From the NCBI GenBank assembly GCA_963082975.1, contig OY720344.1, positions 63,392,546 to 63,456,545 of the forward strand: a DNA stretch of 64,000 bases, given 5' to 3'. The notes beneath the pieces were generated by a model that did not search any database, was not told the origin of the DNA, and was given only the letters and a program-made list of their open reading frames with translations. Both the position numbers and the translations under genes were made by a program. Of the stretch, positions 17,150-62,655 are shown in pieces. This DNA is from Labia minor. Its lineage: Eukaryota > Arthropoda > Insecta > Dermaptera > Spongiphoridae. Positions within the stretch are counted from its first letter, which is position 1. Every line of letters starts with the position of its first letter.

Positions 17150-17743
17150 CTGGAGTGTCTCCACTCGACTATCTCGCAATTTGATTGGATAAAATAACAT
17201 ATATTATATTTAAATTAAATTTATTGAATTATAAATTATCAATTAAAATTAATAAATAATATTTATTAATCCACCGCGTGTTTGGCTCTTTGTTGATGGC
17301 ATCACGTCACGTGCTGGCGAATTTGCAGTGTTAAAAAATTAATTCTGGTACTTTCAATTCTTTCAATAGTTTCTGATTCAATCAAGCCGAAACTATATAT
17401 AGCAGTTTTATACAATTTTTAATCATGTGAAAAACTATCAAACATATATCTTTATTTTTACGGTCACATTAGAGGAAAAAAATCCAAACGTAGAAGGTAA
17501 TGACCATCTTCCACAAAAGTTGATAGAAAACTACGAATTTTGAATAATGCTCGTATACCAATCTCCTTATTCTAGCTCAAATTATTTTTGCGTCATCTTG
17601 TCTACATACGCACATACATACAGACATTTTTCTCAACCTTAGTGAAAATGACTGAGGGACCTTCAAAACGTATAAAAACATCAAAATCTCGACATCGAAA
17701 ATTTTCGTGATCGCAATACTATCTCTGGCGAGATAGTAAAAAT
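17150..17743 (+). mobile_element. HINE-type (Helentron-like) non-autonomous element, copy 1, full length
   Basis: It starts CTGGAGTGTCTCCACTCG, directly followed by the subterminal repeat ACTATCTCGC. It ends with the hairpin ACTATCTCTGGCGAGATAGT and AAAAAT. The 3' arm GCGAGATAGT is the inverse of the 5' subterminal repeat. The interior has a conserved CACGTCACGTG motif, a TTTACGGTCAC segment, and a short CATA/CACA microsatellite at about 17600-17625. Subterminal inverted repeats, an internal microsatellite and a 3' stem-loop without a TA or 8-bp duplication are features described for Helentron-associated (HINE/DINE-1) elements. The class is inferred from architecture; no Rep/helicase gene is present. 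The 119-codon minus-strand open frame at 17577-17936 is a shadow. Confidence 0.75.
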
Positions 17744-18250
17744 TGTTATAAAATCTAAAATTAAAGTATTTGCGATGATATAAACAAAAAGCATTTTTTA
17801 AGGATTTAATTTCCATTTTATGGTTTAAAAAGTATAAAACACAAAATTTCATTATTAAGCCCATTAAAAAGTTCAAAATGTGTAGATTTTTAATGAATAT
17901 CGACACACATTCAGAAAAAGCAGATATATCTATCATTTATCTAATTGCCTTTAATTTTATTTCGGCTACGTCTATGTGATCCAACTCGTTTTTTCTTCCT
18001 GGACCAGAGTGTATGTAAATAAAATGTAGATATGTGGAATAAGTAATATTTTTGTAAACAATTTTAATTATTTATTGTAAATCATTTTATTTTGATTTAC
18101 TCAATATTAATATTAATAATTATTCAAATATATAAATATAATTATAGAAAAATTAAAAAAAAAAATATTTAACAGACTTGTATATTGTCCCAAGGTGTAC
18201 TACTTAGTGGTTCAGCTTGGAACTGTTAAAAGTAAATATGAAAATAAATG
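17744..18250. other. Short non-coding stretch between the HINE copy and the NUMT
   Basis: A/T-rich, with no gene or repeat structure recognised. Confidence 0.6.
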
Positions 18251-18555
18251 ACATTTTTATTTTTTTTAGTAATTACGAGCTTATGGGTTTACACAGTGAT
18301 GATTGCAGGTTGGGCATCGAATTCCAAATACGCTTTACTCGGGGTATACGAGCCTTAGCCCAAAGTATTTCTTACGAGGTAAGTTTAGCATTAATTTTAC
18401 TATATTTTGTCTACTTAATTCAAGGGTTCTGGTTAAAGGGGTTTAATGAATTCCAATATCATGTTTGGTTCCTTTGATTAGGTTTACCTTTAGTTTGTGG
18501 TTGGGGGGTAACGAGTCTAGCTGAAACCAATCGTACGCCTTTTGATTTAGCAGAA
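18251..18555 (+). pseudogene. NUMT: nuclear copy of part of mitochondrial nad1 (ND1)
   Basis: Translated with the invertebrate mitochondrial code, the segment gives conserved ND1 blocks in order: [41 protein letters not shown], then TSLAETNRTPFDLAE. These are the signature core of NADH:ubiquinone oxidoreductase subunit 1 (compare 'GWASNS.YAL.G..RA.AQ.ISYEV' and 'LAETNR.PFDL.E' across animals). The TGA at 18475-18477 falls where ND1 has tryptophan, so it was mitochondrial coding. A one-base frame change lies between the ALLG and GIRA blocks (about 18340). About 100 codons, roughly a third of ND1, are covered, and it ends abruptly before the usual GESELVSGFN. It is embedded in nuclear repeats with no flanking mitochondrial genes. 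Not functional: wrong code, frameshift, truncated at both ends. Confidence 0.93.
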
Positions 18556-19309
18556 AAAAAGAAAATTATTTAAAGTGAAGTGATTTATTTTAAAGATAAA
18601 TTTGATATTTATTCTCATCTAGCAAATTCACTATTTTGATTCATAAACTTTTGTTATTAAGTCAGGATATATCATAATAAGTAGGTACTTTGGTACAAAT
18701 ACAGATTAAATGTAAAAGTTCCGTTCAAATAAACCAAAATCAACCAAATATATAAAAATATTCCAACTATTCTAATCCTTATTTTTTGTAGGAATTTTGA
18801 TTAAAAATTATTCTATCCTAAGACCACTTTATAATATGTGAAATAATGAAAAAATAAAATTGCGCTAAATTTTATAGTTATAAATGATATAAACTATTTA
18901 TTAAAACAATTTAATTTCCATTTAATAATAAAGAAAAAAAAATTATTTCCCTTAATTTATTATTATTATTATTTTTATTATTATTTTTAATAATTATCAT
19001 TTATGTATTTGATTATTTATTTGAAATAAAAATATTTTTATTTTTTTTTTATTTTTTTATATTCTTTTATTTTTTTATAATAATAATAACTTGGAGAACA
19101 GGAATGTTATTTTAAAGCGAGTAGTTTTATTTGGCGTCCTCCTGGACCAGTAGAATGGAGAGTGACGATTGAAAGATAGAGAAAGAGAGATCTCTCTTTT
19201 TCATTCTACCTTCCTCTCTCTGCGTGGGCTGACACTACCACACCCTCCATTGGAACTTTCCGCTTCCCACCCGCGTTCCATAATTAATTATTAAATGCTT
19301 TACATATTC

Positions 19310-19347
<38 letters not shown>

Positions 19348-20722
19348 TATTCTTATCACACCTTTAAAATGACAATAAATTTCGGCTACGAAGGTCTAAT
19401 CCGTCCACCGCATCATCTTAAATAAAATTAAAATAAAAAAAAACAGCAACACAGAAGAGATAAATGATAGACTATAAAATGTATATACGTTTGTTGTTGT
19501 TTTTTTGGCAATTTACATATTGAATATTTAATTCAATGATGTCTTTGTTAACGTAATTTTATAATAAAATTTCTTAAAAAATAATAAAACAAAAACATTT
19601 AAATAAAATAGTTTATGTTGTAAATCTCCCCCCCCTCCCGACCTCCCTAAATACCTTTAATTTTCATGTACTTATAAAAGAGTTGAAAAAATATACCTAT
19701 ATTTATATAATATACTCATATTTTTTTATATAAAATTAATTTATGTTCTTTCTTTTAAAGAATACAAAAATATGTTAGGAATTGTACCCGTTCCTAAATG
19801 AGTCATCTCTACTAATTAGTGAACTGTTACAAAATTATCCATAATTATCCATAAAAATTAATCAAAAAGTTGGTTTTGCTACATGAAAATTTCTTATTCA
19901 TTTGAATCTCCTCACTCGTTAACCCGAAAAGTACATATTTGTTTCGATATTTTTGTAAATGGACAAGCAAATTTTGAAATAAATATCACCGAGAACCAGT
20001 TTCAGGACATAACTGAGATCTAATTATTATTCTCTCCCAATTATTCAGAAGTGATTTGAAGAAGTTATTAAATTCCTACGATACTAACTTTCTTCTCCCA
20101 TTCCCAATTAATAATTAGTACAATGAGCCACATTTTGTTAAGTATTACATAAAACTAGATAAATAAATAATATTAAATATTAATTATTCTTAGATTAGGT
20201 ATGTGAACTTTATAATTATTAGTAATTGATTATTATATAAAACCTTAATTAAAGTTTTCTGCCTGTATTGAATGATTTTTCAGCTCAGATACACTCCAAA
20301 TATATTTGTATTAAATTAGATAGTGTATTAATTATACATTAATATTAAATAAACAATAAAACTTTAAGAGAAATTACATACAAAAATAAGCCATCTAGAG
20401 GATAATTATTTTTTGTATTTTTTTTATTTTCCCATATATGACTTTTTTGCTTTGAATGCCCTCTGGCCTCTTTATGCTCATTATACGAGAGCTCTCTCTC
20501 TCTCTATACCAACATATTATACATCTCAAATATCCCTTTAGAATTTGGTTCATATTCAGGGATTAAATTTCTCTTATATAGATTTTCCTCTCATACTCCC
20601 TCCTATATGTAGTTATATTTATATTAAAATAATATTCATATTTTTTATTATATATATATATATATAATATCTTGTACATATTAATTATTTTGTTATTTTT
20701 TTCATTATAAAAGGATTATGAA

Positions 20723-20725
<3 letters not shown>
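18556..20725. other. AT-rich non-coding stretch
   Basis: No supported gene. A less AT-rich patch at about 19130-19285 contains an imperfect hairpin: gtagaatg near 19150 pairs with cattctac near 19201, with AAGAGAGATCTCTCTT inside. (TA)n occupies 19313-19344. A C-rich strip is at 19626-19645. Otherwise low-complexity. Confidence 0.6.

Positions 20726-20791
<66 letters not shown>
20726..20791. repeat. (AT)n microsatellite, about 66 bp
   Basis: The longest perfect dinucleotide run in the window, purely alternating A and T. Similar shorter runs are scattered throughout. Confidence 0.97.
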
Positions 20792-20794
<3 letters not shown>

Positions 20795-24560: not shown

Positions 24561-25305
24561 AGGAAAAAATTAGTAAATCAGTTAAGTATTTTAAACAAAT
24601 AACGATCATATTTATTTATGCATTTACTGTCCTTAAGCCCATTCATAACAATATAAATAGTGGTAGTTTTAAATATTTAGTTTAAATTATAAAATTTTTT
24701 TTTTTAAATTAAGAAATTATCAATAACACGTTTTTTAAGATATATTAGGAGTGTATTTTAATTTTTTTTTTTGTACCTTTTTATTTAATAATTCAATAAT
24801 CTTTGACAATTTAATTTACAATGATTAAAAACTTGTATAAACTCATTGATTGCGTGTTTGATAGATTTAACACTTTGATAGATAATACAATATAATAGGA
24901 ACGCAATGGTAAGGGAAAAAATATTTAAAGCCATACTTAATAGGATTGAAGTTGGATGAAGAAGACCTAAAAGTGTCTTTTTTTCTTATAATGCTTTTAA
25001 TACCCTGTCATACACCAAGATTTTCAGCTATTTTATAAACGATTAGATTATGGTGTGAGAACGAACAGGAAATCAAGCAAAAACAAAAACAAAAAAAATA
25101 TATATAATTGAGTTATTTTATAAAGTGACCAACACTTTTTTTTTCTTTCTTTGTTTATTTATTTAATTTTTTTTTAAACAACAGATTGTAAAATATATAT
25201 AAATAGGCGAATGCAAAAAAAAATTCTCTATCTCAAATTTTTCCTGTCAAATTGGATTTTTATATGGTTTTCAAGCGATTATATTATAAAAAATATATAT
25301 ATTTT
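24561..25305. other. AT-rich non-coding stretch
   Basis: Low-complexity A/T DNA with no gene or element recognised. Confidence 0.6.
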
Positions 25306-25793
25306 TACCGACCGACGATAGTAAGGGAGGTATTGTTTTCACACCAAATTTCACATGTGGAGATTTTTACATATCTCCACGAATCATGCATTTTCTTAAC
25401 AGAAAAAAGTATTTTTAGCATGATGTCTGTCCGTCTGTCCGTCCGTCTGTCCGTCCGTATAGATGTGTACAGCCTGAACGGCTTAACGGATTTTGATGAA
25501 ATTTGGTATATTTACTTAATGCATCAGTGGGATGAATTGATCAACTTTTGGTGCAAATCCGGAAACCGGAAGTGGTAGTATTAGCGATCGACGATAAGAA
25601 GGGAAGGGTTATTTTCGCACCAAATTTCACATAAGGAGATTTTTTTACATATCACCACGAATGTATTGGTTTTATCCTCGGGAAAAATCATCTTCATTAT
25701 GTTTTTCTTAATTTAAAATTATATGACGTCACCCAGCCCTTCATGACGTCACAGTCTCGGGTAACGCCGGCAACGCCGGCTACTTCAGCTATA
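25306..25793 (+). mobile_element. Helitron-like non-autonomous element with 3' hairpin
   Basis: The segment shares about 270 bp with the minus-strand copy at 11060-11333. It then continues through two TGACGTCA sites to a GC-rich hairpin, GCCGGC-AAC-GCCGGC (25766-25780), followed by TACTTCAGCTAT. A stem-loop about 10 nt before a CAGCTA-type terminus is the known 3' end of Helitrons; the last bases deviate from the strict CTRR. A clustered GTCCGTCTGTCCGTCC tract lies at 25427-25457. Two GGAGATTTTT..ACATATC..CCACGAAT blocks, at about 25357-25387 and 25637-25665, form an internal direct duplication. The 5' end is not resolved. The 108-codon open frame across 25252-25578 is fortuitous. Confidence 0.65.
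25724..25751. promoter_or_regulatory. Pair of CRE-type sites (TGACGTCA x2)
   Basis: Two perfect TGACGTCA palindromes, at 25724-25731 and 25744-25751, lie 20 bp apart (start to start) inside the Helitron-like repeat. CREB/ATF family factors bind this octamer. Whether they act here is unknown; they travel with the element. Confidence 0.4.
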
Positions 25794-27600
25794 TATTATA
25801 AATAAAATAAAATTAAAAATATTTATGTTATATCCATATCTGTTTTTTATTACATTAATAGATATATTAAAATTATTTGAAATTGTTTCTGTAGCTGGAA
25901 ATTAATTTATTTCAAACCGTCGGTCGGTTCGGACCTGGCCATAGGTCAACTTATTTAAGTTTATTTATATTACTTATTTATAGAAATTTTTGAGTTTAGT
26001 CATATTAATATTCTTTACCGAAAAATTAAAGTATATATAGGTAGGTATATGTTATTTTTTTATTTTAATTTTCTTAATTATTCTTATTATATCTCGTTTA
26101 TATACCTACCATCTTCTTCTATATATATATACTATATATATATTATAAAAAAACAAATAAAATGAGTCATAAAATAAATAAATGTAACGAAAAAAATTAA
26201 AGATATACCAAAATTTAGTAAATATAAAATTAAAATAGTGTGCATGATAAAACTTAAAAATAAAAAATTAATTGATTTAATATAACTTTGAAATTTAAAA
26301 TACCACAATTGCAATTCTCTCTTTTTTTACTTAAAATAGCTATAATAATATAATCAGGATTAAATAAACTTTTTTTATATAAAACAACATTATAAAAGAA
26401 TGGTTGGTCGTAGATGATTAAACCCATTAATTTATTTTTATCTTATCAATTAAATATTCTTTAAAAAAAACATCAAAATTAAGAAAATATAATTATATAT
26501 AATAAGAATTATAAGAAAGTTGAAATTAAGGAAAATTGGCCAATTTATATTTTTTTCAATTAAATGGAAAGAAAATAAAACGAAAATTAATGAGTGGGAG
26601 AACTGTAGAGGTAAGGAGAAGGAAAGTGAGGAGGAGGGAATAGGTGGGGTGCTGCGAGGTGGTGGTTAAAAAGAGTTTAGGTCAATTATGGCTAAATTAA
26701 TTAAATTATAAAATAGATTATGAAACAATAATTATAATAAAATAAAGAATAAAATTTGTGACGCATTTAATATACCTAATCATTTATTTTTCCAATTTTT
26801 TAAAATAGCTAGAATTCATTTTTCTATTTGATGATTAAGTATATATATTAATATTATACAATCCTATCTGCCACATGATTCATTAAAATTCTCAATAAAC
26901 ATAAATTAGTGTTATCACTGTTATTAATTTATAAAATCAAAATTGTGAACTTTTCATTTAAATAATTCCACTGATTGCGAAAAAAAATAAAGAAAATAAT
27001 TAAATTTCTATAAATATAATCAATTAAGTTAAAATATTGAAAAAATTAATTATACTTAAAATAAAAAAAAACTTATATTATTAAACACGATTATTTTTCT
27101 ATATTTTGTGTTAGTTAATTAATAGAAAAATTCACATATATTTTAATAAATAAAATATATAAAATATATAAAATAATATATATGGAAATTGATAAAAATA
27201 TTAATTATAAAACTAAATAATAATGTATTTTATCAATTGCTTTTTTTAATAATACTATATTAAGTAAAATGGTTTTTTAAAAGTAATATTAATTATTAAT
27301 TGAAATTTTAAAATTGTAATTGAAACTATTATATAGTGTAAAATTTAAAGTACATATATGATATATAAAATTGGCTAATAATCCCTGAAAGCGGTGGAAT
27401 TTGGTTAAAAATAATGATAGTGATATAATAAAATATTATAGTAGCCTAAGATTGTCCAAAAGATTTATTCAGATTCGTTAAAAGTTATTATTGATAAATT
27501 CAGTATACATTTCTGATTGACTAATTATAATATAATGAAAAAGTTTAAATCGCTTATCTACGAGTATTTTAATCAAATAATATTTAATTTTTAGAATTCA

Positions 27601-38811: not shown

Positions 38812-39373
38812 TTTGAAATATCTACTATTATCTAAAATAATATTATGATAAGAATATCTGGTAATTATTCAGGCAAACACATTTTCGTGGATTTGGATAA
38901 TACTTTACCACTGGGTTCCTTTTGTAATTCCAAATAAACTTTTCTTATGAAATTTTTTCGGGCCTCTTCTAGTTTACGAGATAAAAATTATTAAAATGTG
39001 CATATAAATCCATTAATATTCTATTTAGCTAGCATGTTTTATGAAAATTAAAAAATTAATTAAATAATTTTCATATATCTAAACCGAACTTATAAAAACC
39101 GAAAATTAGTGAATAAGTGACTAATTAGTGAATTAGTCAATAAAACATTACTTAATGGCACATTTCGACGTTCATAACTAATCTGTCAAACTTAAAAACT
39201 CTTTATTTTAATAATTTTTATCTCGTAAACTAGAAGAGGCCCGAAAAAATTTCATAAGAAAAGTTTATCTCGCAAAAGGAACCCACTGGTAAAGTATTCT
39301 CCAAATCTACGAAAATGCGTTTACGTGAATAATTACCGAATATCTAAATAATATCTCAAATATCTACTAATTT
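38812..39373. mobile_element. Long-TIR MITE
   Basis: Arms of about 165 bp, near 38812-38996 and 39207-39373, are inverted copies. They share GGTAATTATTCA, ACTTTACCA.TGGGTTCCTT, TTCTTATGAAATTTTTTCGG and CTTCTAGTTTACGAGATAAA. The inner ~210 bp is A/T-rich and non-coding. Differences between arms are mostly at the outer ends, including a short indel. The exact termini and target duplication are not resolved, so the superfamily is open. Confidence 0.85.
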
Positions 39374-40976: not shown

Positions 40977-43610
40977 AGGTATATCTTATTACTATTATCT
41001 TATTATTGACTTACATGTGGTCAAATGCTGTAGTAATTTTTTTTTTCTGATAAGAGAAATATATTACCTGAAACAGAAAACAAACAAAAATATTATAATT
41101 AGGCATAGTAATTATTTTCTAATAATATATGTTAATGTAAAATAATAGTTAAGTATTCAAATTTTAAAATTTAACTTTAATTAAAAATATTTTGTCTTTT
41201 TCATAAATTAAACTTAATCATAATTTATTCTATATTATTTATTTAATAAATTGCAATATATAATTAATTATATATATATATATGCATTTTCCTTTATATT
41301 CAATGTTGAAATCCCTTTATTTTGATTAGTTTATTTATTATCTTTTGTTCTGGTTAATGAAATTCAATTCTTGTGTTGTTTGGTAACCGAATTGCGCTAC
41401 GGGGCGTTGATGAATCCCTTACCGAAAAGGGCTGTAGTTGGTGCTGGACAGAAAGAGAAACACCAAAGAGGAGATGGGAGGGGGAGAAGGGATGAAAAGA
41501 AACGAGGTGCGGAGGAGGAGGTAGAAGACTTGTGGGTAGAAGAAGAGGAAAAGGGAAGGAGAGAGGAGATCTTAAGACGAGAGCGATGACTCCCATTTAA
41601 AATAATAGGCGCATTCCAAAAATAGTTGCACCGCTGGAGCAAGCAGCCAGCGAACCCTCGATTAAAACATTAACATGAAGATACGATATATTTTCTTAAA
41701 CCTCATGGAATGGAAAAAACGTGTGTATCTCCTCTCTCTCTCTCACACACACAGACTAAAGGGTGATACCAAATATAAGAAATATATATTATATATAAAT
41801 AGTGAGAGAAACATTTAAAAAAAAACAAATGTCAAATGATTTTCAAACAAGTTTTTGATTGTAAAGATAAAAATCTTCTTTTATATAATAAGAGGAAAAA
41901 TATTTAATGTATAATTATAGATTTTATTTTTAATAAAAACAAATCAAATGAAGAGATAAAATTTCTTTCTTTTTTTAAAAAAAAAATTTTTTGTTATAAT
42001 GACTCAATGCAAAAGAGTTCTTTGAGGAAAATAGTATACAAATTTCAGTAAATAAATAAAGGAATATATGTATGTATATAGTAGAAATCTTTAAACACTC
42101 AACATTTTAAGCAGAAATTAGAATTATAGATTTGTACTTGTTTTATAGTGTAAAACTTTCAATTGATTCAAGAGTTATGTCAACAATTTTGTCCTATTAA
42201 ATATTTTATAATTATTTTTTTTTTTAATTATATTAATTAACTTAATGATATATACTGAGTAGAATGTTAATTATCTATTTATTATTTAATAAATTGCAAA
42301 AAATACTTAAATCAAATTTTATTTTTCTAATTTTTTAACAAATAAGAATATATATAGTTATATGTAAGTTGAATGTATGTAGTATAACAATTTGTTTAAA
42401 ACTATTTTAAATTTTCATCTTTTTACTTTTTAAGGATATATATAACTTGACCTATTTTGATAAAACAATAGTAATAATTAGATGTCCAATTTTGGAAAAC
42501 AAAAACAATATATATACAAAGAATCATCATCAGCAGCTACTGAAATTCCATTCTCCCCCACATCTCTGTTTTTTTTTAAATCTCTCTCTCAATCAATGTT
42601 TGTTTTTTTTATTTTTTTATTCTATGTGTAAAGATGCATTTATATACATGATGGTAGTGGCTTGGGACAATTTTATACCTTTACGGCTCTCTTAGTAGGC
42701 GATAACAACATTCAAGGCAAGATAACTACACACTCTAGAGTGTTTATATATATATATATATATATATTGGTTAGAATTTTTAGATACGAAAAAAAGAAAT
42801 GATCGAAATATAACTTAACTTAAACAATCTGATCACAAAAATAAAAAAGAAGGTAAAAGGCTAGGGGAGAGGGGGAGGGGCGAATAAAAAAAAGGGAATT
42901 TTTTGTTGTTGATTATTTATATATGTTATATTTTTTTAGTGTATGATATCAATTTTCTTTTTCAATTAAAGATTTAACAAAACATAAAAGTCATCTTATA
43001 TAAACTTTAATTAAAAATAGAACAAAAAATTTCCCAATTATTTTTTAAATTTAAAGTTAATATCAAAGAATAATTTAATTTATTATTATATATTTACTAT
43101 TTGCAGACAAATAAGACAAAAAACAAATATCTTGCATAAAGAAAAATCATGTTTTAATGTTTTTATTTTTGTTTATAAAACACCGTTTGTCTCCTCCAAC
43201 CCAACTTAAACCCTCCCTGATACACACCTCCTTCCCACTCACCCCACGTCTTTCCTATTATGGGTTAAAAAATGTTCTTGATGGAGCCTAAAAAGGAAAA
43301 TCCGGCTTGAGGCCCACACGTTTTTCACACATTTCGCCATTTAAAGATTAGTCATAAGTATTAATTAGACAATCTCTCTCTAATTAGAATTCTATTTATA
43401 TGAACAATTTTCTAATCTTCAAGTCATTGGTAATGAATTTTAAATACAATTATTAAATAAAAAAATAATATATGTTAGTATACTCCTTCAGGGATTCTTG
43501 TGTTCTTCTTTTATAATATAGAATATTTAATAGATTTAATATAATGTTTTTAACCTCAAAATTATTAAAATATAAATAAGCATAAAACATCAAGTAAATA
43601 ATTAATAATA
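40973..43610. other. Non-coding stretch with a GC-richer patch at 41370-41660
   Basis: 41370-41660 is less AT-rich and strongly purine-biased on the plus strand (GGAGGAGGAGG-type). It then includes GCACCGCTGGAGCAAGCAGC. Opposing frames of 72-81 codons there are composition artefacts of the purine tract. The patch could be a non-coding first exon or regulatory DNA. A 14-bp perfect palindrome, ACACTCTAGAGTGT, lies at 42730-42743 next to (TA)n. 42860-42895 and 43190-43320 are also less AT-rich. Confidence 0.5.
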
Positions 43611-43839
43611 GAATTTCAGCTTGATTGAATCGCTGAAAGTACCGGAATTAATTTTTTAACACATTGACTGGCAATCACGCGCCAGCACGTGACATGGTGC
43701 CATCAATAAAGAGTCAAACACGTGCTGATTTAATAAATATTATTTAATAATTTTAATTTATAATTTAATTAATTAAATTTAATTTAAATATAATATATGT
43801 TAATTATTCCAATTCAAATTGCGAGATAGTCGAGTGGAG
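43611..43839 (-). mobile_element. HINE-type element, copy 2 (5' part only)
   Basis: The minus-strand copy holds the 5' third of the family: CTCCACTCGACTATCTCGC through the CACGTG-containing segment to the TTCAGC..GCTGAA hairpin. It is cut off before the microsatellite and 3' hairpin. The first bases of the 5' end (CTGGAGTG) are also altered. Confidence 0.75.
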
Positions 43840-46328
43840 AAAGATTTTTTATTATGAATTTAGTATAGTTTCCTTTGCTAAATCGGTTTTAATTTAATTA
43901 TTTTTGTATTTTTTTCTTTATTTTAATTTAGATTTTAGAATAGTAGGTTTATACTAAAAATAGATGTGACATATATAATCATATTAATTTAAAATTGAAT
44001 TTGTGTTACGTAACTACGGTGTGGTTATTCATAATAAATATATGTATATGAATTTGGTTCATCTTTGTGTTTCACTGATATAAATTGAATATAATGGAAT
44101 TCTTTTATTATTTAAAATAAATCACTAGTTGCTAATTTCTATTGATGATTTAAATAAATATTTTTTTTTTTGGAGAATTTTTCTCAGCATTAATTTGTTT
44201 TAAATTTTTTTATCTTTAAAGGGTATAAATTAAAAGATTTTTTATATACTTAAAAGTTGATTATTTAATATAATTTTTTTTTAATCTTCTATTAATATTT
44301 AAAATATAATTTACAAATTTAAAAGATAAATTTACAAGTAAGTTAATGCAGTTGTTCATATAAGTGGGAGGTATTTTTATATTTGAATTTAAATCTCTCA
44401 AAATAAAGCATCTAATAAGATTTTCTTAATTATTTATTTATTTATTATCTTGTTTAATAATTTATTTATTTATTTAATTGACAATTAATTTTTGTTATTT
44501 TTCTAAAAATTTAATAGATTCTCAAATAAAAAAATGATAATTAGACACTTTTTAGTTGTTGTTGTTGTTTCAATCACATAAAAGATGTCTCCAATTGGAG
44601 AGAAGACATATGACCTTTTTCTTTAAAGGAAAACGAACATTGAAAGAGTAGGGAGTTCGTTGAACTCTTTTTCTTTTTTTTATATTTCTTCCTCTTCTTC
44701 TTCTTCATAGAATATCAGAAAATTTCTCAGCTGGCGACATCGTAAATGAATTAAAAATATTATAGGATAGATGATAAATGACCTTTCTGCATTTGTTTAA
44801 TAAATAATTACTTTTTTGTTGTTTCTTATAGAAAGTGTTGTTTATATATTTTTTATTTTTTGATTTGATAAAATTTATATTGCATTCAAGTCCAAAAATA
44901 TAATATTTTAATAAAAGACTTATTTTATAATATATTATTTTCACAATACTATATTAATATACTACTTATTAATACTTATATAACGACCAATGAATTTATT
45001 TATTTATTTATTTTTATCAAAATTAATCATTATTTAATCAATTATTAATAATATTTTATAAAAATTTAAAGATTATAACTATTATCAATTAATTATATTA
45101 TTGTATTTTTCAATAAGAGTTATTTTTTAATTTAAGATTAATTTATTTACATTTTTAAAAATTATATCAGAAATTAAGAATCAGAGGTCAACGTTATAAT
45201 AATAATTATAATAATTTTATATAATTTTCAAAAAATAAAAAAAATTACACGTATCACTTTATTATTATTTCTTTTCGAAAAAATAAATAAAAAAAATAAT
45301 TTCTAGTATATATTTGCAATTTTTATATCATTGATTAAAATACTTTTTTATTAATATTAAATAATATACATACATATAAAAGATATTATAGTTATGTACT
45401 ATAGAGATGTATATATACATATATATCTATATATTTAAAATCTTTTGCAATTAGGAATTTTATTGAGTTTACAAATATGGTTTCAAGCTGAATTCAAGAC
45501 AGACATACTTCTATAGGAGGGTGAGGAGGGGAAGAGCTAAGGATATATAATTTATGACCCATTCACAACGTTTGTTATTTATTTATTTTTTAGATTAAAA
45601 CGCAAAATTCATATTAATTGATAGAATTACTAATTATTTCTACATACTTATATCCTTTTATGAAGATTCCTCTTTATTAATTGACAAAAAAAAACATACA
45701 TATGGAAATTTCTGATTAATGTTAAATGAATAAATAAATAAATAAATAAAAACATGACTCTTTTATTTATAATTTTTATAAATTAATAATATTGTGAATT
45801 GAATTAATAATTAAATAATAATTGAATAAAAAATTAAAAAAATAAAATTTATATAAAAAAAAAGATTATTTGATGATTTCGTGAATTTGTGAATTTGTCA
45901 AAAAATTAATTAATATTAAATTCCATACTATTTACAATAAAATTTATTTATTTATCTGTTTTTATCTTATATATATATATATATATATATATATCTGTTC
46001 GTAATTTTTTTTTGGGACATAATATACAATCGTTCCAATTCTATGTCCTTTCTATTGAAAAATAACCATCTCCCGATTCCCAATATGTGAATTCATATTT
46101 TATTCCCATTAGCAAATAAAATTGCATTTAATTATTATTATTTGTATGTATCCGTACAGGAAATCAATTAAGTCAAATCTTTAATGAAACGGATATAATT
46201 AATATAGAAAATAATTTTAATCCTTTGCCCTTCACTCCCCCACATTTAATGAAATTAAAATTACCTAATAATTATAGATTTAGTTCAATTAAAAAATATA
46301 AAAGTATAGAATTATCTAAGTATACATT

Positions 46329-48410: not shown

Positions 48411-48930
48411 GTAATTGTAATTGGATTAACACAATTAATTAAATTATAAATTAAAATTAATAAATAATATTTATTAAACAAGCGAGTGTTTTGCTCTTTG
48501 TTGATGATACCACGTCACGTGCTGGGGTGTGATTGGGAGTCAACGTGTTAAAAAATTATTTTCCGTACTTTCAGCTATTCAATTAAGCTGAAATTCTATA
48601 TATAGACGTTTTATATAATTCTTAATAATGAGTAAAACTATCAAATACATATCTTTATTTTTATGGTCAGTTTAGAGGAAAAAATAATGAAAACGTGGTA
48701 GGTAATGATCCTCTTCCGAAAGAGCTACATTTCTCAAAAGTTGAAAGAAAACCACTGTAGTTTTCTTTCAATTTTGAATAATGCCCGTGTACCAAATTTC
48801 ATTATTCTAACTCTAACCGTTTTTACGTAATCTTGTCTTCATACACACACAGACACATTTTTCTTAACCTTAGTGAAAATAACTCAAAATCTCGACATCG
48901 CAATACTATCTCTGGAGATATAATAAAAAC
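48411..48930 (+). mobile_element. HINE-type element, copy 3 (5' end lost)
   Basis: It aligns to the family from just inside the 5' subterminal repeat to the 3' end. The terminal hairpin is degraded (ACTATCTCTGGAGATATAAT), so one arm is eroded. The internal microsatellite is a short CATACACACACAGACAC. It carries CACGTCACGTGCTGG and TTTCAGC..GCTGAAATTC. Confidence 0.75.
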
Positions 48931-50370
48931 TTATATAGTTACTATGTAATAATATATAGAATCTCTTTTAAGTGGTAGATAAAACAAAGTAGATACATAG
49001 TATAAAAACCAAATATTGTGACAAGTTAAAATCGAGAATTAGGTGTCTTAATTTTTAAAAATCTATATCTAGAATATTCTTAGTAATAAAACAATAAAAA
49101 GTAAAAAATAAAGAACTATATACTAAAAGCAAAACAAAAATTCCAAATTTGGATTTTATTTTCAATCTATATAGAGGAAATTATATTTATTAATATAATA
49201 ATATAGATTATTATAATTAGAATTTCAACTCAATCTAAAAAACGTAGTAGGATCGTCACAAATAAATACTCAGGGCCTAAAATATATCAAAATAACATTA
49301 ATTAAAACAAAATAAAAATAAATTCGATGAATAAATTTTATAAATATCTATAGGTATATAAAATGTCATAGTTTATAATTAGAAAGTGAAAATATTAATA
49401 CATGCTAATTTGCAAATAATTAGTGCTAAAATTAGCATTCAATTAAAAAAAATAATGATAATAATATATGTATGTTAATTTGAAAATATATTAATTTTAC
49501 ATTTAAAGATCTTTGAAATAGTTGGACATATTGACATGTAATTTACATTTAATTGTATAAAAAGAAGGTGTTAATTATAGGCCTCTTAGTGTGCATTAGT
49601 ATTACATATACTTTGCTAAATATGGATAAAAAGAATTTGAGATGTTTTTTTTATTCCCTTTGGTTAAGATAAAATTATTTCCGGAATTACAATTATATTC
49701 ACAATTTCAAGGTTTTTCTAAAATGTGTGTATAAATTTCAAGCCTAGAAAGGGTTTGTTTTAAATAGAAAATTTAATTACTTTTATATAAACTTTATTTA
49801 TTTTATTATTATTAATTATTCAATAAATATTTTTATAAAATTATATCTTCAAAATACAATTGTAATTAATTTAACGATTATAATAATTAAAGATATAGTT
49901 TTTATAACTTTTTTTAATTAAAATTATAATATACTATTTTTCATTATTTCTATTTAAGGGATTTACCACAATAAATTTATAATATATTTTTAAATTATTT
50001 CATAATTTAATATTTGTATAAAACATAATTAAACATTATTAAATATCTTAATAAAATAATATATAAGTAAATGTTTTTAAATATTGGATGTTAAATTTTT
50101 CTCTATTTATAATTTTATATTAGGCATGTTGAAATATTATATTGGTAATTATGTATTTTTGGTAATATAAAAGAAGAAATGGCAAAAAAGAGTTTTGGAT
50201 ATATTGATGCAATATAAAATTGAATATTAAATTAATTAATTATCTTCATATTTTTCTATTCTGTAAACTATAATATAATCAGTTTTTAATATATTTTGTA
50301 TTTCTATCGGTGGTCTTAACTTATTAGAGTATATTAAGAGAGATCATCCTCTTCTCTAATCATCGTATTT
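48931..50370. other. AT-rich non-coding stretch
   Basis: Low-complexity, no gene or element recognised. Confidence 0.6.
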
Positions 50371-51297
50371 TTTTTACCACGTTTTTCTTAGCTTGCTTTC
50401 TTGTTTATCTGTTCGCGTCAAATCTTGCAATCGAAATTTCGACCACTTCCAGTCATCCAATCGCTCTGAAACTTTTCAGAGTTATGTATTCTGGATGACA
50501 ATACAATAAAATAACACATTCGTAGCTTGCAAGTGTTTAATTAGAGCATAATTAATGAATATTTGTATTTTGTTAACTTAAAAAGGAGAAACAATAATAA
50601 TACAACAAAAGGCCCTTTCCAAAACTTACCTTTCTCAATACATAATACAAAAGAAGAAAACAACAAAAGGGACTTTGTCAAAACATTAAAAATAAATAAT
50701 ACAGATGTCCATAGTCCGCTTGTTTAAAAAAATATTCAAGAGTTGATTCTAGTATGTATTAAATATATTCAATATATTAAATATTAAATATATTATTTTT
50801 GATCTAAACGAATAGAGAATGGATTTTACATAAAATTTGTAATCATTTCACAAATTAATAATATAATAAATGACACATTGTGAATTGACGATAAAAATAA
50901 ATATATTTCATTAGATCTTATTTTATTATACTAGCAAAAATTGTATAAATATATTTTTAATTTTCTTTCGAAATTAATTAAAAAATTTTAAAATATTTTA
51001 AATATAAAAAATATTGATACAATATCTAATACAAAAACGAGACGGGATGCAAATATAATACATTAATTAATAATAATAATCAAAATATTAAAATCCGTTT
51101 AAATAAGAAGTTTGAAAAAATGTTCAGGTCGCTCCCCTCCAACTAAATGACAGTCCTGATCGTATGTTCCATGCTGCGAATTAAATTTGGATTAAGCATC
51201 ATAAATTCTAAAATAATAATTAAATAAATTTCAAATAACGATTAGATATTTATTAAATGAATTACTAATAAATAATATTCAATCTAATGAAATAAAG
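50371..51297 (+). repeat. Long interspersed repeat, copy 1 (at least 927 bp)
   Basis: It begins TTTTTACCACGTTTTTC. By line-by-line reading it is the same as 63074-64000 without a difference that I could see, at an offset of 12,703 bp. The first ~210 bp recur again at 51677-51890 with changes. It contains a small hairpin, CTCTGAAACTTTTCAGAG. No coding frame is present. The right end is unknown because copy 2 is cut by the window edge. It is either a non-autonomous mobile element or a recent segmental duplication. Confidence 0.92.
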
Positions 51298-51676: not shown

Positions 51677-51890
51677 ATTTTACCACGTTTTTCTTAGCTT
51701 GCTTTCTTGTTTGTTTGTTTGTTTATTTATCTGTTCGGGTCAAATCTTGCAATCGAAATTTCGACCACTTCCAGTCATCCAATCGCTCTGAAACTTTTCA
51801 GAGTAATGTATTCTGGATGACAATACAATAATACAATAATAATTCGTAGCTTGCAAGTGTTTAATTAGAGCATAATTAATGAATATAATT
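51677..51890 (+). repeat. Partial, diverged copy of the head of the 927-bp repeat
   Basis: It runs from TTTTACCACGTTTTTCTTAG to GCATAATTAATGAATAT. Compared with 50371-50580 it has an expanded (TTTG)n-like segment near 51706-51730 and a few substitutions. It lies downstream in the same orientation as copy 1, so the two heads bracket about 1.1 kb as direct repeats. Confidence 0.88.
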
Positions 51891-52243: not shown

Positions 52244-53100
52244 AATAATACTTTATATAAAAAAAAAACTTTTTTAAAAAACCACGTTTTTAACGCACTA
52301 AAAAGAAGAAAATAATTTTTCTGAAACCCCATAGGTACTGACATTACAAACAAGAGATATGATTTGAAGAAAATTTTCTATAACGTAAAACGTGGGGCGC
52401 AAATAATAATAAATTTTTTAAATGCAATATAATTTCTTTGATTAATTTATTTCAATATCCATGGATTTATATTTTAAGTTTTATATTTTTTACCAGACTT
52501 TTTGTAAAAGGGAATATTATTAGTAATCCAACAGAATACTTTTATTAATGTAAATTTTTTTTGGAAAATTAATTCCTTAATATTAAATAAACATCTTCAA
52601 TTTACACTTTAGAAATTTTATTAACATAAATATTAAATATTTGCTAGAAGTTTTGCAGTAGCAAAATTTAGTTTTAGATTTCTTCAAGTTAAATTTCTTA
52701 TATTATTTACCAGAATATTGTTAGGATGTCATTTTTTATCAGAATTTTTTAAAAGTGAATATTATTAGTAATCTAAAGGTAATCTTTTCATAAATTAAAT
52801 TTACCTCTTTTAAAAATTTCGATAAGTTATAAGCTTTACTTTTTGAAGCTAATTAAAATATGAATTCATTTATCCTATTAATTTGTACCTAATAACATTT
52901 ATTTATAAATTTTTATACGATACAGAATATTTTAGCCATAGTTGCGCCCCACGTTTTACGTTATAGAAAATTTTCTTCAAATCATATCTCTTGTTTGTAA
53001 TGTCAGTACCTATGGGGTTTCAGAAAAATTATTTTCTTCTTTTTAGTGCGTTAAAAACGTGGTTTTTTAAAAAAGTTTTTTTTTTATATAAAGTATTATT
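52244..53100. mobile_element. Long-TIR MITE, about 857 bp
   Basis: Arms of about 160 bp (52244-52403 and 52943-53100) are near-perfect inverted copies. They begin AATAATACTTTATATA and pass through CCACGTTTTTAACGCAC, GAAACCCCATAGGTACTGAC and AACGTAAAACGTGGGGCGCAA. The ~540-bp interior is A/T-rich and non-coding. No clear target duplication was found, so the superfamily is open. Very similar arms suggest either recent insertion or gene conversion. The inner arm motif CTAAAAAGAAGAAAATAATT also occurs near 57248 and 61818. Confidence 0.88.
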
Positions 53101-54860: not shown

Positions 54861-54947
54861 GATAATGAAATTTTCAATGTCGAGATTTTGATGTTTTTAT
54901 ACGTTTTGAAAGTCCCTGAGTTATTTTCACTAAGGTTGAGAAAAATG

Positions 54948-54979
<32 letters not shown>

Positions 54980-55361
54980 CAAAATTACGCAAAAACAGTT
55001 TGAGCAAGAATAAGTAGTATTTTGGTAAACAGCCATTTTCAAAATTAGTAGTTTTCTATCAACTTTTGAGAAATGTAGCTCTTTCTACCAGATTTTCAAT
55101 TTTTTTTACCTCTAAACTTACCATAAAAATAAAGATATCTATTTGATAGTTTTAGACATTATTAAAAGTTGCTATATATAGAATTTCAGCATGATTGTAT
55201 CTCTGAAAGTATCGAAAATAATTTTTTAACACGTTGACTGCCAATCACGAGCCAGCACATGACGTGGTGTCATCAATAAAGAGCCAAACAGGCACTGGTT
55301 TAATAAATATGATTTATTAATTTTAATTTATAATTTAAATAATTAAATTTAATTTAAATAA

Positions 55362-55778
55362 AACTAGCTTCAATACACTTCTGACAACGTTCGTATAATG
55401 CTAGAAAATTGTTGGAGAAGAGCCTTGATGTGGAATCGTTCTCAGAATAGCAGTCACAACGTTCAGGCCGGCAATCCACAAGCAGGGCACCAGAAAACAC
55501 TCAAGGTGTAACAAAAAATCGGCAATTGACTTTGAGACTAATAGCCGAAGAATTGGGTATTAGCAAAGACACAGTAAGTAGTGTGTTCTGGTGTTCTGAG
55601 AACGATTCCACATCAAGACTTCTCCAACAGTTTTCTAGCGTTATACGAACGTTGTCAGAAGTGTGTTGTGGCTAGTGGAGAGTATTTTGAAGGTTAATAA
55701 AGGTATTTTTTTACCATTAACATTCTCTTTTTATGTTTTTATCATACCATTCACCCTAGTTTTTAGATACATCTCGTA
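55362..55778 (+). mobile_element. Rearranged mariner fragment inserted in a HINE copy
   Basis: The insert carries two pieces of mariner-type transposase (55500-55697) and an inverted duplicate of its C-terminal region at 55366-55448. That duplicate pairs with about 55588-55672, so the element folds back on itself. The right side continues past the stop into a 3' tail ending in GATACATCTCGTA next to TA. The left mariner terminus is absent. The flanks join cleanly to HINE sequence, so the insertion is younger than that HINE copy. Confidence 0.78.
55494..55697 (+). pseudogene. Mariner transposase remnant: helix-turn-helix joined to C-terminus
   Basis: 55494-55585 reads APENTQGVTKNRQLTLRLIA then EELGISKDTVSSV, the second helix-turn-helix region of mariner transposases. 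After a junction at GTGTTCTG|GTGTTCTG the frame shifts. It then reads LRTIPHQDFSNSFLALYERC and QKCVVASGEYFEG before TAA at 55695-55697, which resembles a mariner C-terminus (..YERC.KCV...G.YFEG). The whole catalytic domain is missing, an internal deletion probably mediated by the short GTGTTCTG repeat. Not functional. Confidence 0.8.
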
Positions 55779-55832
55779 TATGTTAATTAAACCAATTCAA
55801 ATTTGCGAGATAGTCGAGTGGAGACACTCCAG

Positions 55833-57246
55833 ATGTTTTTATTTATTGTGGGTGTGTTACAATTAATTTTTTAAAAAGAATTTCCATCTTAACAAATTCA
55901 ATATCAAAATTTTATAACAATAATATAATCATTTCTACCATCATATGCTATATTTATAACAATATATAATTCCAATTGTTTCATACAAGTATAATATTTG
56001 TAAAATTTAGATACTTAAATATATACATAAACATATAACATTTCAAAGTCTAAATATTGTTTGGATTTTTATCCTTTTTGATATTTTGAATAATTACTTA
56101 AAGAAATAAAAATCAATTAAAATTTTCCTCTCAAGAGAAATTGGGGAAACAATTTTTCAGCTTAAAAACCACATAATATGTGATTTTGAATAAATCATTA
56201 AAACCCTTTTGTGATTAGAAATATATAATATCTCTATATTAATTGATACAAAAAGAGAGAGAAGTAAGCCGAACTAGAGGTAAGCAATTTTCCTATACTT
56301 ATTTTTTATAATAAAAATTTTTCATTTCATGTGAAATCACAATAGTGACATGCTGCTGCTGATGATGATGATAATAATGATGATGATGGTCATGGGTGAG
56401 TCGCAAAGTACCTTTAATTGATAGCAATTTAAGGAGGCAAGCAAGCAAAAACGAACTGAATAGAGAGCATAAGATGGTAGAAATTTCCTTAAATATGAAT
56501 ATACATATATTATATATTATAAACTTATAATATATATTAGTATATATATAAATTTATTTAATACAGTTAGGTAAAAGAAAAACAAAAAAAAAATAATGGG
56601 AGTAAATTTTAATAAAATAAGAAGAATTCAAATATTCAATCTTCTTCCAAGATTTCTTATTCATTTTATTAAATAAATTTTCTTTATTATATCATTATCG
56701 TTTATTGTTTTCTGTGAATTTAATAACTTAATAAATAAGTTTTTCACATTCTGATAACGCCAGAACGTTTTTACATGCAGATAGCAGAAAAATGTCAGAA
56801 ATCGATTTAAATGTTTTTTTAATATCATGTTAAGAAAACCGCTTTTTCACAGGGACTGCAATTTAATAATGATAATAATAATAATAATAATAATAATCGA
56901 ACAATAATTAATTAACAATAAATAATTCAAATAAATTCGTTATAATTATATTTATCTCAACAATTATTTTAATTGAAAAAAAATTATCAATTTAGTTAGT
57001 GTGATTATAAATTTATTTTTAATTAAAATAATTAATTTTTATTTTTAAAAAAAATTTTATTTATTTTTAAAATTATATACTTTATGCACAAAGCACTAGA
57101 TAGATTTTCTTTTTCGAAATCGTTAGGATTTTTAATAAACTTATTTGAATATAATTTAATTATAATTTTAATTATTTTTATATATTTATTGAATTAACAA
57201 TATTATGTTAGAGATATAAGAAATATTTTCAATAATTTCCAATGGA
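55833..57246. other. AT-rich non-coding stretch
   Basis: No supported gene. (GAT)n/(AAT)n near 56358-56390 and (AAT)n near 56870-56897. Confidence 0.6.
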
Positions 57247-57878: not shown

Positions 57879-58067
57879 TACTTTCAAAATGAAAATCTAT
57901 CCTAAAATCAATATTTATGTTTCAAAATCAAAAAAAAATTAAATTAATCGAAGCAATACAAAAGGTGTTAGTTACTAAAAGTAATTAATCGCTAATTAAT
58001 TACAATTAATTAATAATAATTTAATTATATTTCTTCTATACCTTCTAGGGATCCATTGAAATATCTA
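57571..58067. other. AT-rich non-coding stretch
   Basis: (TA)n at about 57846-57868; no gene or element recognised. Confidence 0.55.

Positions 58068-59611: not shown

Positions 59612-59645
<34 letters not shown>
58194..59645. other. Non-coding stretch with G-rich tracts
   Basis: 58812-58845 and 59072-59090 hold runs of 10 or more G, candidates for G-quadruplexes. 59100-59200 is less AT-rich with GGTTGGTcgtcAACCAATCC, an inverted repeat containing a CCAAT box. (TA)n at 59617-59645 abuts the SINE. No gene recognised. Confidence 0.55.
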
Positions 59646-59650
<5 letters not shown>

Positions 59651-59826
59651 TCTGACTTTGTACGTCCTATGCAAGGACAATGCCTATCAAGTCGGTTATA
59701 TCAATGAGGTGTCCTATGATCAGTAGAACGGGTCTCCTCAACCTTTACCTTGATTTTCTTGATCGGAGGCGCTATCAAGTAGCTTTTCCCCATGTTGTTC
59801 CCGGAGGCTGGGTTGACTCGATCCCA
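59646..59826 (-). mobile_element. SINE, 5'-truncated relative of the 7-kb copy
   Basis: On the minus strand it runs from GAGTCAACCCAGCCTCCGG through TACTTGATAGCGCCTCCGAT, CAAGAAAATCAAGGT and CCGTTCTACTGATCATAGGA to CAGAGGTTT. It lacks the polymerase III promoter head. Its uninterrupted body shows where the extra segment sits in the 7-kb copy. It is inserted beside a (TA)n tract. Confidence 0.8.
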
Positions 59827-60846
59827 AATTTATAATTTATCTTATTTTGTCATTGAGTATTTTCGATGTGTGATAATTGGATGGCGATAGTGAAATTTAT
59901 AATACTCTTATAATATTTATTATACATAGAATCTCTACATACTAGGTGTGTATACTAATACTTTCTTTCAGTGAATATTTAAATTTGAAGAGATATTTAA
60001 CTATTTTTTTTTAATTTTCATCAACCAATCACTACCCCTCTTATCATTCATTTATTGAGGGTTTTTAAAAAAAAATATGATTATTTTTTTATTTTTGAAC
60101 GTCAAAAGATATTAAGAAATGCATTTACAGGGTATAAAAGCTTTTTTAAGCTTACTCACGCAAAGAGTACTCTCAATTTTTTATTATTTTTTTTTAAATA
60201 CATTAATGTAGATATTCAATTATCATTGAATAAAGAGAGCGAAAGAGAGAAATTTACTATCGACTCTTTACTCTCAATCAAGGTAAAAACAACTTTGGGA
60301 GGAAAGGATGGAGTTGGCAAGCCGAAGGGCATTCGTTAGATGATCAGATTTAATTAGCAAATTGTTCATTGGGTTGTGGTATATAGAATACAAAAAAAAA
60401 AAATAAACACTCGAGAGATGAAGAAGGAGAAAAAAGCGAGGAATGGGTGGGGGAGGGGATTAGAAATTTTATCAAACCAAGCAGGAGAGGAATTCATCTT
60501 TTTAATTGTCCCTTATTTGCATCCGAAACTCTTCCTCCTCCCCACCCCCCTAATTGATCCTCCTTCTCCAGTCCTCTGTTTAATGACCGGATAAAAAGCG
60601 CTGTCTTATCTTGATTATAAAATGCTCAAAATCTCTCTTGAACTTTTTTTGTTTCCCTTCCCCCTCAAGCTAAAAACCTCACCGATGAAGTAACATTAAG
60701 ATGATGTATATACCGTATAAAAAAAGAGTATAACAACCGCAACAACATTATGTTAAAGAAACATTATCCAGGTGTGGTTTAATGAAAAGAGATGTTCATT
60801 AAGAGAGTTTCCTTTCTTATACATATTTTTTTTTGTTTTTGTTTAA

Positions 60847-60877
<31 letters not shown>

Positions 60878-61103
60878 CCTTCAATTAACGTCAAATTAAA
60901 AATGGTCATCATATTTAAAAATACATTACTAATACAACACATAATACTTTTTTTATATTAGTACAATGATTTTAAAAAATAATTCTATAACTAAAAGCAA
61001 AAATATGATTTAAATAAATAAAAGAGTTTTGGAAATGATTTTTTTCACTTAATTGATTTTAATTTATATTACAATAAAAATTTGAATTGTAATTTGAAAT
61101 TAG
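59827..61103. other. Non-coding stretch
   Basis: A/T-rich with a less AT-rich patch at 60410-60620. The 94- and 72-codon plus-strand frames (60055-60594) are K/F/L-rich and carry no known motif. (TA)n at 60847-60872. Confidence 0.55.
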
Positions 61104-61717
61104 CTGGAGTGTCTCCACTCGACTATCTTGCAATTTGAATTGGAATAAATAACATAATATATTATAATTAAAATAAATTTAATTAATTATAAATTTTAAA
61201 TTAAAATTAATAAATAATATTTATTAAACCAGCGCATGTTTGGCTCTTTGTTGATGGCACCACGTCACGTGTTGGCTCGTGAGATTTGCAGTGTTAAAAA
61301 ATTAATTCTGGTACTTTCAGCGATTCAATCAAGCTGAAATTCTATATATAGCAGTTTTATACAATTTTGAATCATGTGAAAAATTATCAAACATATATCT
61401 TTATTTTTACGGTCACTTTAGAGGAAAAAAATCAAAATGTTGTAGGTAATGACCCTCTTCCAAATAAACTACATTTCTCAAAAGTTGATAGAAAACTACG
61501 AATTTTGAATAATGTCCATACCAAACTTCGTGATTCTAGCTCAAACCGTTTTTGCGTAATCTTGCCTACATACATACACACATACACCCACACACACACA
61601 CACACAGACATACATTTTTTTCAACCGTAGTGAAAATGATTCATGAACCTTCAAAACGTATAAAAACATCGAAAATTTTCGTGATCGCAATACTATCTCT
61701 GGCGGGATAGTAAAAAT
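61104..61717 (+). mobile_element. HINE-type element, copy 5, full length
   Basis: Starts CTGGAGTGTCTCCACTCG with the subterminal repeat ACTATCTTGC. Ends ACTATCTCTGGCGGGATAGT plus AAAAAT. A (CA)n microsatellite occupies about 61575-61606. It is the left arm of an inverted pair with copy 6, and very close to copy 1 in sequence. The 87-codon open frame across it is a shadow. Confidence 0.82.
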
Positions 61718-62036
61718 ATATTTAAGAAGAATATCTTCTAAATAAAAAATAAATAAATAAAAAAATTAAAATTATAAATATAAAAATATTTTTATAAAAT
61801 AACTTTTTTCCCATGAACTAAAAAGAAGAAAATAATTTTTCTATAAGCCTGATAAAGTTTATGGATGAATTGCTTCATATTTAACGAAAAACGTTGAAAA
61901 ATTTAACATAGCAATTCTGTACATTTACAAATGAACACCCATATTTATCCTTATTTTGATCTGAATATCTATTAACTACTTATGTATATAAAAAATAGAA
62001 TTTAAAAATCTATTGCTTTTGTTTTTTATAACTTAC
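61718..62036. other. Spacer of the inverted HINE pair
   Basis: About 319 bp, A/T-rich. 61816-61905 belongs to the repeat shared with 57247-57345. Confidence 0.6.
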
Positions 62037-62153
62037 ATTTTTACTATCTCGTAAGAGATAGTATTGCGATCACGAAAATTTTCGATGTTGAGATTTTGAT
62101 GTTTTTATACGTTTTGAAGGTTCCTGAATCATTTTCACTAAGGTTGAGAAAAA

Positions 62154-62194
<41 letters not shown>

Positions 62195-62655
62195 AGACAA
62201 GATTACGCAAAAACGGTTTAAGCTAGAATGATGAAATTTGGTACATGGACATTATTCAAAATTCATAGTTTTCTATCAACTTTTGAGAAATGTAGCTCAA
62301 CCGGAAGAGGGTCATTTCTTACAACGTTTTGATTTTTTTTCCTCTAAAGTGACCGTAAAAATAAAGATATATGTTTGATAATTTTTCACATGATTAATAA
62401 TTATATAAGACTGATATATATAAAATTTCAGTTTGATTGAATTGCTGAAAGTACCAGAATTAATTTTTTAACACTGCAAATCTCACGCGCCAACACGTGC
62501 CATGGTGCCATCAATAAAAAGCCAAACATGTGCTGGTTTAATAAATATTATTTATTAATTATAATTTATAATTAATTAAATTTAATTTAAATATAATATA
62601 TTATGTTATTTAATCCAGTTCAAATTTGCGAGATAGTCGAGTGGAGACACTCCAG
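62037..62655 (-). mobile_element. HINE-type element, copy 6, full length
   Basis: Minus-strand copy with an intact 3' hairpin (ACTATCTCGTAAGAGATAGT as read on the plus strand) and an intact 5' end at 62655. Its microsatellite is (GT)n on the plus strand at 62158-62190, the longest of the family here. The interior has the CACGTG and TTCAGC features of the others. Confidence 0.82.

Follow-up and report, generated by a model that had tools for sequence, protein, structure and literature searches.

A stretch of 64,000 nucleotides from Labia minor (GenBank assembly GCA_963082975.1, contig OY720344.1, positions 63,392,546 to 63,456,545 of the forward strand), here called the window, carries six repeats that are very likely HINEs, short non-autonomous derivatives of Helentrons, to which a rare Helentron of about 12.2 kb in the same genome, or a close relative of it, supplies the protein. 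Judged against published descriptions, the HINE family is probably a new one of a known kind. All six sites are copies of this one family: a profile built from 36 copies, of which the window supplied three, matches each of them (E 6e-216 to 2e-64). An earlier note, made from the letters of the window alone, had proposed a six-copy family of non-autonomous Helentron relatives. That kinship is supported by how the element is built, by its insertion into T tracts and by the existence of a Rep/helicase/endonuclease element that carries both termini, and the six copies do belong together, but both ends are not common to all six: the copies at 17150, 61104 and 62037 are full length and the other three are truncated. 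In agreement with the note, no coding capacity was found in the copies of about 614 bp; a single frame of 110 aa or more touches a copy (17577–17936, stop to stop), and it extends beyond that copy.

Read on the strand opposite to that of the earlier note, the element has the order N-TTTTT-ACTATCTCGCCAGAGATAGT...GCGAGATAGT-CGAG-TGGAG-ACA-CTCCA-G-CT(A/T)A-TTT. Each of the five T's beside ACTATC is conserved in 33–36 of the 36 copies and the next base outward is free, while on the CTWA side three T's are kept in 33–35 copies and a fourth in 23. The subterminal repeat ACTATCTCGC is located 2 nt from the 5' end, if the TT is counted as element, and the 3' subterminal repeat GCGAGATAGT about 22 nt from the 3' end, with a shared repeat of 10 bp. 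A palindrome, TGGAG-ACA-CTCCA, follows 5 nt from the 3' end. On folding, the commoner family form of the 5' hairpin has a 9-bp stem (z -5.4, with 0 of 200 shuffles as good). Published Helentrons and HINEs begin with a palindromic 5' repeat, which in HINEs lies 2–4 nt from the end, and have a 3' repeat set inwards and followed by a stem-loop (PMC4067079; papers cited by PMC number were available in extract, and statements about them refer to these extracts). Because the internal repeat, the hairpin and the CTWA terminus match this order, the CTGGAG side should be the 3' end, and the ACTATCTC...GAGATAGT stem-loop the 5' end. The earlier note had these swapped: its 3' stem-loop is the 5' end, and its fixed 5' end, CTGGAG, is the 3' end, present in four of the six copies and absent at 48411 and 43611. 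The subterminal repeats, some with single changes, and the internal microsatellite, both of which had been ascribed to all six, are found in the full-length window copies.

The genome containing the window (604 Mb in 71 contigs) has 27,227 matches to a 28-nt 3'-end pattern with at most one mismatch, and 18,264 to a 31-nt 5'-end pattern with at most two, the latter being built on one hairpin-loop variant only; the reversed controls gave no match in either case. From these counts HINE ends are spaced about 22–33 kb apart on average. The 36 profile copies comprise the three from the window and 33 of 39 loci fetched from the genome (fetched loci carry L numbers), a single-piece alignment over query positions 6–608 being required, a rule that excluded L022, L025, L026, L032, L040 and L042. 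Their median divergence is 4.0% from the consensus and 7.3% pairwise, but most were fetched as best matches, and the whole family may be older than this implies. Exact end patterns had no match in bacterial, archaeal and viral sequence collections, which is hence little informative.

The earlier note had proposed a search for an autonomous Rep/helicase element sharing both termini, and a candidate of about 12.2 kb was found on contig C1, the chromosome to which the window also belongs (Table 1). The 104 genome matches to PF14214 include Helitron-type frames with RGLPHxH (L050, L052, L054–L056) and frames with RGSPHxH (L058 and L059). L059 (C1:47862000-47871999, minus strand) contains an open frame of 2181 aa, with an exact HINE 3' end (28/28) about 1.25 kb downstream of it followed by CTAATTTT, and L060, the next 6 kb upstream, contains an exact HINE 5' end. 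Between these two ends error-tolerant patterns detected no other HINE end in that orientation over 12 kb. The first ~750 bp of the element match the first ~525 bp of the HINE with one internal duplication, and the next sizeable match is located only at the 3' end. The 2181-aa frame shows Pfam matches to Helitron_like_N (E 1e-23), PIF1 (E 2e-31) and DUF6570 (E 1e-11), and thus has Rep and PIF1 in one frame. An S in RGSPHxH, and F/Y-(w/l/y/k)-R before motif 2, are described as Helentron marks (PMC4067079), and the Rep motif of the partner, VEFQMRGSPHEH (RGSPHEH), carries this S. A C-terminal piece matches Exo_endo_phos_2 (PF14529) with E 6e-5 and 23.3 bits, below the curated cut-off of 27.4, and many other frames of the genome, presumably non-LTR endonucleases, are 35–41% identical to this endonuclease-like stretch.

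A search with the last 400 residues of the frame found at least three close copies in the genome, the open one (copy 1) included, a lower bound as 104 of 1055 candidates were scored. Copy 2 (C1:44.69 Mb) shows 99% identity over the 249 bp before the 3' border, has an identical 3' end and diverges directly after CTAATTTTA. The bodies of copies 1 and 2 are 98–99% identical up to this border, except for an insert of about 1 kb in copy 1 that copy 2 lacks. The stretch 834–957 of the partner, right after its HINE-like part, adjoins the frame in copy 2 too. No HINE 5' end was found in the 9 kb fetched for copy 2, where the upstream part is another Helentron body with ~71–73% identity. Very probably the ~12.2 kb element moves the HINEs, and its 2181-aa protein would then be the one that acts on them. 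With a candidate driver at hand for a HINE amplified on this scale, driver and passenger both become testable.

No HINE end was found in 3.5-kb pieces around the Helitron loci L048–L057, nor in the 10 kb examined at L058 (C9:34491500-34501499), which reach only ~0.27 kb upstream of its frame. This frame of 1785 aa has RGSPHIH, PIF1 and DUF6570 with no endonuclease match, and might belong to a Helitron2 or proto-Helentron. L054–L057 and other PF14214 sites constitute a Helitron-type family with several copies of equal score and open frames of ~1652 aa, which suggests recent activity. In L077 (C1:44698700-44707699) two Helentron bodies with ~71–73% identity are joined head to tail, and some of their sequence is missing where they meet.

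Helentron target sites have been ambiguous because T's flank both ends. Copies nested in the T run of another copy were used as natural empty sites. A 3'-junction pattern, which requires at least four T's and would miss shorter right sides, gave 41 matches (control 0); the 20 loci fetched include 5 true nested cases, 14 composites and one copy truncated at the 5' end. With a 5'-junction pattern 44 matches were obtained (control 0), 20 of them on the plus strand, and three of these were nested cases already fetched. The other 17 plus-strand loci are 12 nested cases, one tandem (L100), three with only the 5' part of the outer copy, and one ambiguous case (L112). In the three outer-5' loci (L108, L109 and L114) no HINE follows beyond the inner copy, only ~30 bases being visible in L114, and in L105, one of the 12 nested cases, the outer 5' side was recognised by the pattern and not by the profile. 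The sum of left and right T's in the 17 nested cases is 10 in ten, 11 in four, 9 in two and 12 in one; a C-to-T change beside the run contributes to some of the higher sums. The same host run in 29 measured intact copies (7 of 36 unmeasured) is T8 in 18, T7 in 8, and T6, T9 and T10 in one each. Comparison of these sums with the intact run lengths pointed to TTT^TTT as the target and to a gain of two T's.

A second host run is T6 in all 26 measured copies (10 unmeasured), for which an outcome of T5 on the left and T3 on the right was written down before the search. Six matches were found, and the right junction is exactly TTT in all of them, though two or more T's were allowed. All six loci were fetched, and four are true nested cases, each with T5 left and T3 right as predicted; L117 is a composite and L120 is truncated at the 5' end. 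The insertion target is TTT^TTT with a net gain of two T's, so that a host T6 becomes T5-element-T3. The earlier note had proposed to inspect the junctions for T|T sites; the site is in the middle of the T run with two T's gained, and not a bare T|T. The two extra T's are either borne by the element or a TT duplication, alternatives that are indistinguishable here, as in published work. Non-nested insertions have exactly five T's on the left in 21 of 35 cases and fewer in 5, and on the right three T's in 11 of 35 (the mode) and fewer in 4; given these short flanks the rule is a strong preference, or one blurred by later change. The joined flanks of the 36 insertions gave no spanning empty-site match among the fetched loci, and comparison of the flanks with one another returned mostly neighbouring HINEs and other repeats. 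The many natural empty sites provided by self-nested copies make TTT^TTT plus two T's a rule that can be stated and tested.

The flanks also bear on whether the repeats are miniature inverted-repeat transposable elements (MITEs) moved by a cut-and-paste DDE transposase. Small non-coding copies with inverted repeats near both ends would be expected of such elements, and a frame of 374 aa that looks Tc1/IS630-like by eye is present in the window between inverted arms (~13129–14790). This Tc1-like element has, however, its own arms of ~186 bp, the HINE repeats sit at unequal distances from the two termini (2 versus ~22 bp), and both HINE ends are shared with a Rep/helicase element. Target duplications of 2–8 bp showed no excess over shuffled flanks in 35 genome copies (1/35 at 6 bp and 0/35 at 8 bp), in agreement with the earlier statement that there is no clear target duplication. 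A MITE origin is very improbable on this evidence, no genome search aimed at DDE elements with these termini having been made.

In the composites a HINE that extends to its 5' end, or close to it, is followed by a HINE from the T run onward, and the 5' flank is unrelated. Eleven of them have a 5' end recognised by the pattern, and the left border has at least five T's in seven and two or three T's in four; this suggests that composites moved to new sites as linked units, their far 3' ends lying outside the fetched sequence. With the assigned polarity, composites that retain the outer 3' part require bypass of the 3' terminator, and bypass of a Helitron 3' end has been published for Helraiser, in ~11.7% of events (PMC4778049). 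The ratio of composite classes is at odds with simple stopping at the first terminator, while rolling-circle copying itself would be compatible with composites. Frequent bypass, amplification of a few founders, template switching in T runs or a reversed polarity could each account for the excess of composites that retain the outer 3' part. In the tandem L100 a HINE 3' end is joined to the next HINE 5' end via TTT only, beside a further partial HINE.

Several observations weigh against the HINE reading, its polarity or its partner. The shared repeat is 10 bp here versus 12–15 bp in published mite HINEs (PMC4067079), the 3' hairpin is weak in folding (z -1.8, with 12 of 200 shuffles as good), and composites with the outer 3' part are commoner (14/20 in the 3'-junction set and 1/6 in the T6 set) than those with the outer 5' part (3/17 in the 5'-junction set). 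In the partner the triplet before motif 2 is YER, with a middle residue off the Helentron rule, which it fits in part. The frame is open in one copy only and broken in the two other close copies, and for the broken copy on C10 no HINE 3' end was found within 1.5 kb downstream. The HINE 5' end is linked to the frame at one locus only, as copy 2 misses the 5' part. Finally, the 5' part is internally duplicated and copy 2 lacks the stretch 957–4532 at the corresponding position, indicating that the partner is not pristine.

With replication starting at the CTGGAG/CTWA end and stopping at the ACTATC hairpin, the 14 of 20 loci with an inner full copy and an outer CTGGAG-side part would be explained by simple stopping at the first terminator, at the hairpin that is the stronger in folding. 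The order of subterminal repeat, hairpin and CTRR-like terminus nevertheless agrees with what has been published for 3' ends of both Helentrons and Helitrons (PMC4067079, PMC5148889), and the partner frame is read in the direction from ACTATC to CTWA, though inverted frames have been published (PMC4067079). The reversed polarity is accordingly unlikely. Also unlikely is a chance assembly at C1:47.86 Mb, in which an unrelated Helentron body came to lie between a 3' end and a HINE 5' fragment of older date. The average spacing of HINE ends, the duplication in the HINE-like 5' part and the single locus with a 5' end would permit it. Against it stand the exact 3' end common to the second copy, with bodies that agree up to the border, the stretch 834–957 next to the frame in copy 2 also, and the lack of any other end in that orientation over 12 kb.

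If the CTGGAG side is the 3' end and the partner is the driver, a Rep-PIF1 helicase-endonuclease protein from the ~12.2 kb Helentron, or from a close relative, would act in trans on the HINEs. It would nick at the 5' palindromic end TT-ACTATCTCGCCAGAGATAGT, and one strand would be peeled off by strand displacement as far as the 3' hairpin and CTWA terminus. A rolling-circle intermediate, with CTWA joined to TTACTATC, might follow. The copy would then be joined into a T run some six nucleotides long or longer, in T6 between the third and the fourth T, leaving two extra T's that are carried by the element or arise as a TT duplication.

The family resembles the HINEs of Metaseiulus, Culex and Drosophila (Thomas et al. 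2014, PMC4067079), which are non-coding and have a palindromic 5' subterminal inverted repeat, an inset 3' one, a 3' palindrome and a microsatellite, and likewise share the T-run target, the border T's and a rare Helentron partner that is far outnumbered by HINEs. It differs in the distance of the 3' repeat from the end (~22–32 bp versus 38–60), and further in the CTWA terminus and in the T6 target and the gain of two T's measured here. DINE-1/INE-1 of Drosophila belongs to the same architecture class with a T-rich target, but DINE-1 repeats are not palindromic (PMC4067079), in contrast to the 5' repeat here. A hairpin close to a CTRR-like 3' end is shared with canonical Helitron1, from which the T-run target instead of A|T, the palindromic subterminal repeats and the RGSPHxH instead of RGLPHxH of the partner differ. 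FoHeli/Helitron2 of Fusarium (PMC5148889) has asymmetric terminal inverted repeats and hairpins at both ends as well. Its chimeras, ascribed to self-insertion, combine several 5' ends with a single 3' end, whereas the opposite class is commoner here among the fetched cases.

Like Helentrons, which encode Rep, helicase and AP endonuclease and often OTU, the partner unites in one frame an RGSPHxH Rep, a PIF1 helicase and, towards the C-terminus, an endonuclease-like domain, but its C-terminal protease-like stretch resembles Ulp1/SENP8 and not OTU. This stretch matches Ulp1 (PF02902) with E 8e-4 and 19.7 bits, below the cut-off of 20.7, and SENP8 with E 0.004, the aligned residues including H-W, D, Q and Y-D-C-G. 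At C1:55.8 Mb a distant relative, with 34% identity over the endonuclease stretch, ends in a clear OTU protease (PF02338, E 1e-8). Two Helentron-like frames of one genome thus appear to bear different proteases after the endonuclease stretch, the Ulp1/SENP8-like one being a weak match. Compared with the two broken copies, the protease piece has pN/pS of 0.53 and 0.48 (single-difference codons; too few sites for a conclusion on selection), and in copy 2 the aspartate of the putative triad is changed. Literature searches, including passages of PMC4067079, PMC4289320 and PMC6213432, gave no Ulp1-type domain in a Helentron among the papers listed, though such a swap may be in print. The possibility, to which we give slightly less than even weight, is that a Helentron lineage replaced OTU by a Ulp1/SENP-like protease (SUMO or NEDD8), fused behind the endonuclease, and, with only three close copies found, drove about twenty thousand or more HINEs that prefer TTT^TTT and readily form composites via each other's T runs and bypassed ends. 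If the exchange is confirmed, Helentrons may depend on the removal of a ubiquitin-like tag and not on one particular fold of protease. Follow-up is worthwhile for the T6 rule and for the exchange of proteases in the driver.

The features are collected in Table 1. In the copy at 54867, model positions 48–577 correspond to 54867–55363 and 582–643 to 55778–55840, and the insert that separates them, judged by eye, has inverted-repeat arms and mariner-like coding remains.

Table 1. Copies and parts of the HINE family in the window, and the putative partner elsewhere in the genome.
Feature	Position	Strand	Remark
Full-length HINE, Helentron orientation, TT...CTTA	17146..17739	-	6.6% from consensus
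3' part of HINE, both ends truncated	43608..43840	+	model 394-627
HINE without last ~65 bp (3' subterminal inverted repeat, hairpin and CTGGAG end gone)	48415..48931	-	model 10-577
HINE without first ~36 bp (ACTATC end lost), split by 414-bp insert	54867..55836	+	profile match; last bases approximate
Foreign insert, 414 bp, inside 54867 copy	55364..55777	.	boundaries from profile match
Full-length HINE, ends CTAA	61100..61713	-	4.1% from consensus
Full-length HINE, 3' end TTTA versus CTTA in others	62041..62659	+	3.7% from consensus
5' palindromic subterminal repeat (hairpin) of 62041 copy	62043..62062	+	sequence
Internal TG/GT microsatellite of 62041 copy	62154..62194	+	sequence
3' subterminal repeat, terminal hairpin and terminus of 62041 copy	62628..62659	+	sequence, family form
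Putative partner Helentron, ~12.2 kb	G000:C1:47862609-47874779	-	both HINE termini exact

Rfam and tRNA scans of the window gave no match at the thresholds used. The window contains further repeats. The inverted arms around the 374-aa Tc1/IS630-type-looking frame at 13129–14790 are 95% alike. The stretches 50368–51297 and 63070–64000 form a direct repeat with 99.9% identity over 930 bp or more, the second running off the window end, and a third partial copy (95%) is located at 51723–51886. Two foldback elements, at 52244–53100 and 38840–39354, have arms of ~160 bp that are 99–100% and 88% alike, respectively. Another repeat family, with a TGTCCGTC microsatellite, is present at 25301–25962 and 11058–11318; its interior is weakly similar to the HINE interior (E 5e-8), and it is perhaps a second HINE-like family.

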